From assembly GCF_019243775.1 (NCBI RefSeq), contig NZ_CP069157.1, forward strand, positions 992,001 through 1,056,000: 64,000 bases of DNA, read 5' to 3'. The first letter of the stretch is position 1, and every line of letters starts with the position of its first letter. Below the pieces are notes generated by a model. The model saw only the letters and a list, made by a program, of their open reading frames with translations. It had not been told where the DNA came from and did not search any database. Of the stretch, positions 21,877 through 25,729 are shown piece by piece. Source of the DNA: Morganella morganii. GTDB taxonomy: Bacteria; Pseudomonadota; Gammaproteobacteria; Enterobacterales; Enterobacteriaceae. The position numbers and the translations under genes were made by a program.

Positions 21877-22404
21877 TTAATCTGCTGCACTGGTACTCTC
21901 TCCGGCCAGTGCAGCCAATTTCTCCAGCTTCTTCCTCAGTTTTTCCGGACTTCTCTGCGCCAGCGCTTTCAGTGAATTGGCACTCTCCGCACTTAATCTC
22001 CGTCCCGGCTCCGCTGTTTTTTGCCCTCTGCTATCTGAATTGCTGCTTTTATCACCACCCGGTAACCCTGTTGCTGATGATTTCATCAATGACGGATTGA
22101 TTTTGATGTCGATGGCCGATAATGATGGTAAAATCTCCCGGCGCAGTGCAGAACGCAGTGCGGGAAGTTCGTAACGCAGCCGGGTCATCTGTGCCGCATT
22201 AGAGACTTCCAGAATTAACAGTTGTTTGCGATAATTAGCCACGCGGCAGTGTGGTTTAAGCATCGCAGGCAGCAGCGCCAGAACGGCGCGGTTGAGTTTA
22301 AGTAACACGACAGCACGCTGCTGAATACTTTTAAGGGTATTATTATCCTTAGTCCCGCTTTCCAGCAGGCTTTCAAGGGAAACTGGCTGACTGTCGCGCA
22401 TCAC
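21877..22404 (-). CDS. DUF721 (DciA-like) protein
   Basis: A 175-residue protein whose N-terminal half (LESLLESGTKDNNTLKSIQQRA, then LPAMLKPHCRVANYRKQLLILEV and AAQMTRLRYELPALR) fits the DUF721/DciA family. DciA assists DnaB helicase loading in bacteria without DnaC. In enterobacteria the role of such paralogues is unclear. The C-terminal part (about residues 110-175) is low-complexity and basic (SSATGLPGGDKSSNSDSRGQK), probably disordered. It is divergent from secM, with about 30 nt between the two starts. E. coli lacks a gene here, although related genera carry one upstream of secM as far as I recall. Confidence 0.75.
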   Translation of the reverse strand: MMRDSQPVSLESLLESGTKDNNTLKSIQQRAVVLLKLNRAVLALLPAMLKPHCRVANYRKQLLILEVSNAAQMTRLRYELPALRSALRREILPSLSAIDIKINPSLMKSSATGLPGGDKSSNSDSRGQKTAEPGRRLSAESANSLKALAQRSPEKLRKKLEKLAALAGESTSAAD

Positions 22405-22422
22405 ATATACTCCGGATCTCGT

Positions 22423-22437
22423 GAGGGAAACACTATT
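22423..22437 (+). promoter_or_regulatory. Ribosome-binding site and ATT start of secM
   Basis: GAGGGA at 22423-22428 lies 6-8 nt before ATT at 22435. Homology to E. coli SecM (WRQFG, RRYFW) runs from 22447 with no ATG, GTG or TTG in this frame before it. The ATT start gives 170 residues, the same as E. coli SecM. Confidence 0.65.
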
Positions 22438-22947
22438 TTAAATCTTTGGCGGCAATTTGGCAGGCGTTATTTCTGGTGCCATCTCTTTATCGGGATTGTG
22501 GCGACCGGTTTTGGCCTGCCTGCGGTACTGAACAGTGGTGATGTTACCACAGCCGGTACCGGGACAACACAAAACCGCCAGAGTCAGGCATTATCCGCCT
22601 TTGACAGCCTGTTCCTGCAAAGCAGCCAGCCGGCGAGAACCTCACAGAACGTTAATTACTGGCAGCAGCATGCTGTCCGTAATGTTATCCGCCAGATTTC
22701 CTTTGCATTTTCCTGTCCGGAAGATGCCTCAAAAGATAATACCCCGGCAGAAGACCGGCATGATGCCTCCGCACAAAATATGCTGGCGGCACTGTATGCC
22801 ATTCTGACCGACTCCCCGGCTCTGCCTGTTTATCATCCGGCAGTTCTGCCGCAGCGTATTGCTGTAGTTAACCCGTCTCCGTCTTTTTCGGTTCAGTGGA
22901 TTGCCCGCACCGGCGGCATCCGTGCCGGTCCCGTACAATCAGCGTAG
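22435..22947 (+). CDS. secM: Secretion monitor SecM (translation-arrest peptide), ATT start
   Basis: Exported regulatory peptide whose ribosome stalls near its end unless it is pulled by SecA. Stalling exposes the secA ribosome-binding site. The start at ATT 22435 gives 170 residues. The N-region LNLWRQFGRRYFW and h-region CHLFIGIVATGFGLPAV form the long signal peptide as in E. coli. A GTG at 22498 would remove most of it. The arrest motif WIxxxxGIRAGP is present (WIARTGGIRAGP), with arrest Pro at 22930-22932. The upstream Phe is 4 residues before Trp rather than 5. The gene precedes secA by 70 nt. Confidence 0.85.
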   Translation: MLNLWRQFGRRYFWCHLFIGIVATGFGLPAVLNSGDVTTAGTGTTQNRQSQALSAFDSLFLQSSQPARTSQNVNYWQQHAVRNVIRQISFAFSCPEDASKDNTPAEDRHDASAQNMLAALYAILTDSPALPVYHPAVLPQRIAVVNPSPSFSVQWIARTGGIRAGPVQSA

Positions 22948-23017: not shown

Positions 23018-25729
23018 ATGCTGGTAAAATTACTGACCAAAATCTTCGGCAGCCGGAATGACCGTACTTTACGCCGCCTGCGCAAATCCGTGGAAGCTAT
23101 CAACCGGATGGAACCTGAGTTCGAAAAACTCAGTGATGATGAATTAAAAGCCAAAACACAGGAATTCCGTGATCGCCTGGCCAAAGGTGAATCCGAGCAG
23201 GATATCTTACCGGAAGCGTTCGCCACGGTACGTGAAGCCAGTAAACGTGTATTTGGTATGCGTCACTTTGATGTCCAGCTGATCGGCGGCATGGTGCTGA
23301 ACGAACGCTGCATCGCTGAGATGCGTACAGGTGAAGGTAAAACGCTGACCGCAACACTGCCTGCTTACCTCAACGCCCTGTCCGGCAAAGGGGTTCACGT
23401 GGTGACAGTGAACGACTACCTCGCCCAGCGTGACGCCGAAAACAACCGTCCGCTGTTTGAATTCCTCGGTATGACCGTCGGTATCAACCTGCCGGGCATG
23501 CCTGCACCGGCCAAACGCGAAGCGTACGCTGCGGATATCACTTACGGTACCAACAACGAATACGGTTTTGACTATCTGCGTGACAACATGGCGTTCAGCC
23601 CGGAAGAGCGTGTACAGCGCAAACTGCACTACGCGCTGGTGGATGAGGTTGACTCCATCTTAATCGATGAAGCCCGTACCCCGCTGATTATCTCCGGTCC
23701 GGCAGAAGACAGCTCTGAGCTGTACATGAAAGTGGATAAACTGATCCCGCGTCTGGTCCGCCAGGAAAAAGAAGATTCCGACACTTTCAAAGGTGAAGGT
23801 CACTTCTCTGTGGATGAGAAAACCCGCCAGGTCACACTGACCGAGCGTGGTCTGGTGCTGGTGGAAGAGCTGCTGTCTGAAGCGGGTCTGATGAATGAAG
23901 GTGAATCCCTGTACTCACCATCCAATATCATGCTGATGCACCACGTTATGGCGGGTCTGCGTGCGCACTCCCTGTTTGTCCGTGATGTCGACTATATTGT
24001 CAGCGAAGGTGAGGTTATCATCGTCGATGAGCACACCGGCCGTACCATGCAGGGCCGCCGCTGGTCTGATGGTCTGCATCAGGCAGTGGAAGCCAAAGAA
24101 GGTGTGGAAATCCAGAATGAAAACCAGACACTGGCTTCCATCACTTTCCAGAACTACTTCCGTTTATACACCAAACTGGCCGGGATGACCGGTACAGCGG
24201 ATACGGAAGCGTTTGAATTCAGTTCAATTTATAAACTCGATACCATTGTTATCCCGACTAACCGTCCGATGATCCGTAAAGATTTACCGGATCTGGTTTA
24301 TATGACAGAAGCTGATAAATTCAATGCCATCATTGAAGATATCCGCGAGCGTACCGCAGCCGGACAACCGGTCCTGGTGGGTACTATCTCTATCGAGAAA
24401 TCAGAGCTTATCTCCAACGCACTGAAAAAAGCCAAAATTGAACACAGCGTGCTGAACGCCAAATTCCACGCCATGGAAGCGGATATCGTTGAACAGGCGG
24501 GTCGTTCCGGTCACGTGACTATCGCCACCAACATGGCGGGTCGTGGTACGGATATCGTGCTGGGCGGCAGCTTACAGGCGGATCTGGCGGCGCTGGACGA
24601 GCCGACAGAAGAGAATATCGCTGCGGCGAAAGCTGCATGGCAGGAGCGTCACGATGCCGTTCTGGCGGCAGGCGGTCTGCATATCATCGGTACTGAGCGT
24701 CATGAATCCCGCCGTATCGATAACCAGTTACGCGGTCGTTCAGGTCGTCAGGGTGATGCCGGTTCTTCCCGCTTCTACCTGTCTATGGAAGATGCGCTGA
24801 TGCGTATTTTCGCCTCTGACCGTGTTACCGGCATGATGCGCAAACTGGGTATGAAAGAAGGTGAGGCGATTGAGCATCCGTGGGTAACCAAAGCGATTGC
24901 CAACGCACAGCGTAAAGTGGAAAGCCGTAACTTTGATATCCGTAAACAGCTGCTGGAATACGATGATGTGGCAAACGACCAGCGCCGTGCTATCTATACC
25001 CAGCGTAATGATCTGCTGGATAACGGGGATATCAGCGAAACTATCGACAGCATCCGTGGTGACGTATTCACAACAGTTATCGATGCACACATTCCGCCGC
25101 AGTCTCTGGAAGAAATGTGGGATATCCAGGGGCTGGAGAAACGTCTGGAACAGGATTTCGACTTACATCTGCCAATCAAAGAGTGGCTGGATAAAGAGCC
25201 TGAACTGCACGAAGAAACCCTGCGTGAGCGCATCCTTGACAAAGCGGTAGAAGTTTACAAAGCCAAAGAAGAGATTGTCGGCGCTGAAATGATGCGTCAC
25301 TTCGAGAAAGGCGTGATGCTGCAAACCCTGGATACCCTGTGGAAAGAACACCTGGCAGCAATGGATTACCTGCGTCAGGGGATCCATCTGCGCGGTTATG
25401 CACAGAAAGATCCGAAGCAGGAATACAAGCGTGAATCTTTCTCCATGTTTGCTAACATGCTGGAAGGTCTGAAATATGAAGTAGTCAGCACCATTTCCAA
25501 AGTTCAGGTCCGCATGCCGGAAGAAGTGGAAGCACTGGAGCAGCGTCGTCGTGAGGAAGCTGAACGTCTGGCACAGCGTCAGCAGCTCAGTCATGAAAAT
25601 GACAATGCTGCGCTGATGACCAAAACTGAAGCGGAAATGGCATCGGGTGTCCGCAAAGTCGGCCGTAACGATCCATGCCCTTGCGGTTCCGGTAAGAAAT
25701 ACAAGCAGTGCCACGGTGCACTGAAATAA
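23018..25729 (+). CDS. secA: Preprotein translocase ATPase SecA
   Basis: Motor ATPase driving proteins through SecYEG and partner of SecB. It has 903 residues (901 in E. coli). In order: Walker [12 protein letters not shown] (near 102-112), [26 protein letters not shown] (DEAD-like, near 209), the preprotein-crosslinking domain, NBD2 with [14 protein letters not shown] (near 505) and [21 protein letters not shown] split around 570. The C-terminal zinc site is [14 protein letters not shown]. It is translationally coupled to secM, and a terminator follows. Confidence 0.98.

Follow-up and report, generated by a model that had tools for sequence, protein, structure and literature searches.

The secM gene of Morganella has lost its canonical start codon and very probably begins at AUU

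Introduction

An AUU start codon is known for just two genes of Escherichia coli (PMC9410913), and changes to this codon are rare: among 36 genome triplets, a switch to AUU was found in 1 of 61,358 ancestral AUG starts and in 1 of 5,080 GUG starts (PMC5622118). The autocontrolled E. coli gene infC, which encodes IF3, combines an AUU start with an upstream Shine-Dalgarno (SD) sequence, the arrangement that is also proposed here for secM in Morganella. The product of infC is the very factor that senses its start codon, which creates a feedback loop; Morganella secM has no such loop and a weaker SD. The second close parallel is E. coli pcnB, coding for poly(A) polymerase I, with an ATT start and the SD GAGGU. 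According to Binns and Masters (2002, as cited in PMC9410913), the AUU start limits pcnB expression in E. coli. The ATT of pcnB is common to E. coli and Morganella, whereas that of secM occurs in Morganella only, with 188 other loci compared. In Streptomyces, too, a non-canonical codon holds down a regulator: sigR starts at GTC and is repressed by IF3 (PMC5472188). That gene differs from Morganella secM in its codon (GTC, not ATT), in encoding a sigma factor, and in that its IF3 effect was shown experimentally.

Other enterobacterial secM genes likewise lie upstream of secA and encode a signal peptide and an arrest motif. Unlike the Morganella gene, they start with GTG or TTG seven codons, or with ATG six codons, before the tryptophan of the WRQFG motif (positions -7 and -6), often with a slight SD. 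SecM controls SecA, the motor of protein export. In E. coli, both the basal and the regulated expression of SecA depend on the arrest of SecM (Murakami 2004, as cited in PMC5821084), so an altered initiation of secM could affect secA. A search of the literature turned up no work on the secM gene of Morganella, nor any on secM genes that start at AUU. The comparisons reported here make it very likely that Morganella secM is a new addition to the few genes that start at AUU. A regulatory gene of textbook standing, coupled to the essential secA, would thereby have moved its start to AUU and retained it genus-wide.

Genomes and loci compared

The secM start regions were collected across the GTDB family to which Morganella belongs, which gave 188 loci from 187 other genomes. 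One genome was included twice, and where both positions held a canonical codon, the codon at -7 was counted. The genus itself was represented by six Morganella genomes, including three of M. morganii and two of M. psychrotolerans. The window is the whole stretch of M. morganii DNA that was analysed, 64,000 nucleotides long; its relevant features are listed in Table 1.

Table 1 Features of the secM region (positions in the window)
Feature	Position	Strand	Basis
Invariant 62-nt block spanning SD, ATT and next codons	22394..22455	+	Comparison of six Morganella genomes
Possible -10 element TATACT of a secM promoter	22406..22411	+	Read by eye
Mini-ORF GTG AGG GAA ACA CTA TTT TAA, out of frame, overlapping ATT, without SD	22421..22441	+	Sequence; SD test
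SD match TGAGGG	22422..22427	+	-4.6 kcal/mol, aligned spacing 4
AAC ACT, aligned with the ATG start and codon 2 in relatives	22429..22434	+	Alignment with L017, L018, L010 and L016
ATT, putative start; internal Ile codon in the ancestor	22435..22437	+	Six Morganella genomes; aligned with internal Ile codons of relatives
secM CDS from ATT, 170 codons and stop	22435..22947	+	NCBIfam NF002799 and Pfam SecM profile matches, dN/dS
GTG, first ordinary in-frame start codon, rejected	22498..22500	+	SD overlaps spacing zone; 21 conserved codons lost
Approximate arrest segment coding WIARTGGIRAGP	22900..22938	+	Translation; GIRAGP common to relatives
secA, regulated gene downstream of secM	23018..25729	+	ORF list

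Results and discussion

Loss of the canonical start codon

The open secM frame reaches back to 22306 and ends directly upstream of secA. When it was scanned, no in-frame ATG, GTG or TTG was found between 22306 and GTG 22498. The homology to SecM nevertheless begins well before this GTG, as the sequence-only reading of the region had claimed: the protein read from ATT 22435 scored 162 bits against the NCBIfam SecM profile NF002799 (cut-off 100), while the protein read from GTG 22498 reached 102 bits, barely above the cut-off. The difference of 60 bits corresponds to the 21 codons upstream of GTG 22498, which encode WRQFGRRYFW as the n-region together with half of the hydrophobic core. With the Pfam SecM profile PF06558, the protein from ATT obtained 150 bits against a cut-off of 25.

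A canonical start was present in all 188 loci outside Morganella, either at -7 (GTG in 154 loci, TTG in 5) or at -6 (ATG in 29). Members of Morganella were the only ones in the compared set without either codon, and no independent loss of the canonical secM start was detected elsewhere among the 188 loci. Aligning the secM leader across relatives, a check that had been proposed for this start, thus showed the ordinary start to be missing in Morganella alone. Relatives such as L017 read GAAGGATTAATGAGTATTTTAAATCTTTGG, the counterpart in Morganella is GAGGGAAACACTATTTTAAATCTTTGG, and the positions homologous to the ATG and GTG starts of relatives read AAC and GGA. On this alignment the ancestral ATG has become AAC, followed by ACT, and the lineage of Morganella no longer has the canonical secM start.

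The Morganella genomes agreed in their open frame and start region, with ATT kept in 6/6. Since all six carry this sequence, a strain oddity or a sequencing error is excluded as the source of the missing start. An indel upstream of the gene that would link the frame to an ordinary start codon, named beforehand as an observation that would speak against ATT, was not found in the six genomes, in all of which GTG 22421 is out of frame. A candidate for such an indel, the run of four T behind GTG 22421 (ATTTTAAAT), was rejected, as it is ancestral and lies in frame in the relatives.

The loss of the ordinary start codon could by itself be read as a sign that secM is untranslated or decaying in Morganella. 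This reading is barely credible, given that the 170-codon frame is intact in 6/6 genomes, the WI and GIRAGP parts of the arrest motif are retained and dN/dS among the Morganella genomes amounts to 0.09-0.20. The gene is under purifying selection in this genus.

Probable initiation at ATT 22435

ATT 22435 is the best-supported start of secM in Morganella and, judged from the comparisons, very probably the one in use. The proposal that secM starts here, made from this one stretch of DNA, is well supported by the lost start, the selected frame, an SD-like site and the lack of a linking indel. The placement of the elements was confirmed: ATT occupies 22435-22437 and is preceded by GAGGGA at 22423-22428, which ends 6 nt before it, with GAGG ending 8 nt before it. 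The SD match in Table 1 overlaps this hexamer. An equally good SD at usable spacing occurs at about 1.2% of the positions in the window and before 10 of its 746 ATT triplets. In the first batch of non-Morganella loci (n = 118), an SD of -4 kcal/mol was reached in only 4%, and 56% had none. With so few relatives reaching this value, the SD of Morganella secM is much better than is normal for the family, which would fit compensation for a weak start codon. A stronger SD constraint has been described for GUG and UUG genes (PMC5622118).

Two genes of the same genome served as positive controls. The infC locus reads ATT AAA GGC GGA behind a GGAGG SD (match of -7.0) and the pcnB locus reads ATT TTA AAC CGA with an SD match of -5.4; neither has a canonical codon in frame upstream. 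Morganella secM shares with these AUU-start genes the lack of a canonical codon near the homologous start, a spaced SD and a conserved ATT. The start contexts of secM (ACT ATT TTA AAT) and pcnB (ACC ATT TTA AAC) resemble each other strikingly, a likeness that is probably due to chance because ATT TTA AAT is ancestral in secM.

Translation from ATT yields 170 residues, the length of E. coli SecM, which had been taken as support for this codon. The length itself was confirmed, but it does not mark the E. coli start, as the homologous starts lie further upstream. The start codons of relatives map two (ATG) or three (GTG) codons upstream of ATT, and the equal length is therefore a coincidence of indels.

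The first ordinary start codon in the frame, GTG 22498, would give a SecM of 149 residues without a working signal peptide, with the upstream homology as a relic. Its product still matches the Pfam SecM profile with 147.5 bits. This start is nonetheless very unlikely: it would remove the charged part of the signal peptide and half of its core, its sole SD match is too near the codon to function, and export could not relieve the arrest of a product that lacks the n-region. Moreover, the 21 codons before GTG 22498 do not look like a relic. They keep the family sequence WRQFGRRYFW...HL..G, and between genomes they showed 0-1 nonsynonymous changes despite a dS of up to 0.6-0.7 elsewhere in the gene. 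Only three of the codons 1-21 vary among the Morganella genomes, two synonymously and one between F and L, at a position that is also variable in relatives.

The conservation extends upstream of the coding sequence. The invariant block 22394-22455 is the longest invariant run within about 1.1 kb around the site in the six genomes, while across much of the remaining sequence about 6 in every 30 positions distinguish the two Morganella clades. A promoter or the divergent start of dciA may account for part of this invariance. A consensus promoter scan detected no promoter on the + strand near secM.

The dciA gene (DUF721; Pfam DciA 46.7 bits) occupies 21877-22401 in antisense orientation between lpxC and secM. 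Its start lies about 30 bp from that of secM, and the two genes have a very short divergent region in common.

The mini-ORF that opens at GTG 22421 is preserved in 6/6 Morganella genomes, its stop overlaps the ATT region, and most relatives start secM with GTG. Ribosomes might thus start at this out-of-frame GTG, read six codons and enter secM by a -1 shift or by termination and restart at ATT 22435. We regard this route as improbable to much the same degree as a start at GTG 22498. The SD test revealed no SD before GTG 22421, the mini-ORF contains no slippery heptamer, and tRNA-Phe would need to re-pair from UUU to AUU. Its conservation is unspecific, since the entire segment is invariant, and the GTG that relatives have at codon -7 is an in-frame codon situated 5 nt closer to the gene than GTG 22421. 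A restart after the mini-ORF would in any case use ATT 22435.

A near-cognate codon further upstream, ATC 22345 or CTG 22387, could serve as start on a longer transcript reading through from lpxC. SD-like matches precede both codons (-4.5 and -3.4 kcal/mol, respectively), yet both fall within the antisense dciA region. Many relatives have no upstream extension at all, their frame being closed 7-13 codons before WRQFG, and the family comparison shows that relatives have no need for such a start. Near-cognate initiation upstream is thus even less probable than a start at either GTG.

For initiation at ATT 22435, the following course of events is proposed. The usual start, an ATG two codons before an internal Ile codon, would have been destroyed in the Morganella ancestor through substitutions together with a slight change in length, and initiation would have shifted to the ancestral Ile codon, assisted by a TGAGGG SD that is better than in most relatives. 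The initiator tRNA would read AUU as fMet, leaving SecM two residues shorter at its N-terminus. The shortened protein would retain its signal peptide and probably its arrest motif and still control secA. The history of this proposed start shift is readable in the region, with the ATG lost, the SD present and the internal Ile codon reused. With gene finders restricted to ATG, GTG and TTG, secM would be called from GTG 22498 and the signal peptide of SecM would be missed.

Possible consequences for secM and secA

Initiation at AUU itself, a low efficiency of this codon and discrimination by IF3 are what we infer for secM. Discrimination of IF3 against the AUU of secM is a sound prediction from the work on infC (PMC5472188), and sigR of Streptomyces shows that wiring of this kind can exist. 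The further suggestion that the ATT ties secA induction to initiation-factor status is speculation. It appears unlikely that the ATT start is an adaptive device by which IF3 sets entry into secM, so that SecA supply would respond to export capacity and also to initiation-factor status, alongside infC and pcnB. In the relatives the secM start is usually weak, mostly a GTG with little SD. Low ribosome entry may belong to the way secM is built to work, in which case AUU with a better SD may simply restore that rate. Morganella secM offers a clean test case for IF3 tuning of a Sec regulator.

Arrest segment and secM-secA junction

The arrest motif of E. coli SecM is F150xxxxWIxxxxGIRAGP. Compared with it, the Morganella protein has WI and GIRAGP in register, with Ser at the position of F150 and Phe one position later. 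Within 22880-22938 the sequence FSVQW stands against FSTPVW in E. coli, the Phe being one position nearer to Trp, in 6/6 Morganella genomes. Between 22930 and 23017, a predicted fold pairs GTACAATCAG, at the end of secM, with CTGATTGTGC just before secA. This predicted pairing resembles the known helix of the secM-secA leader.
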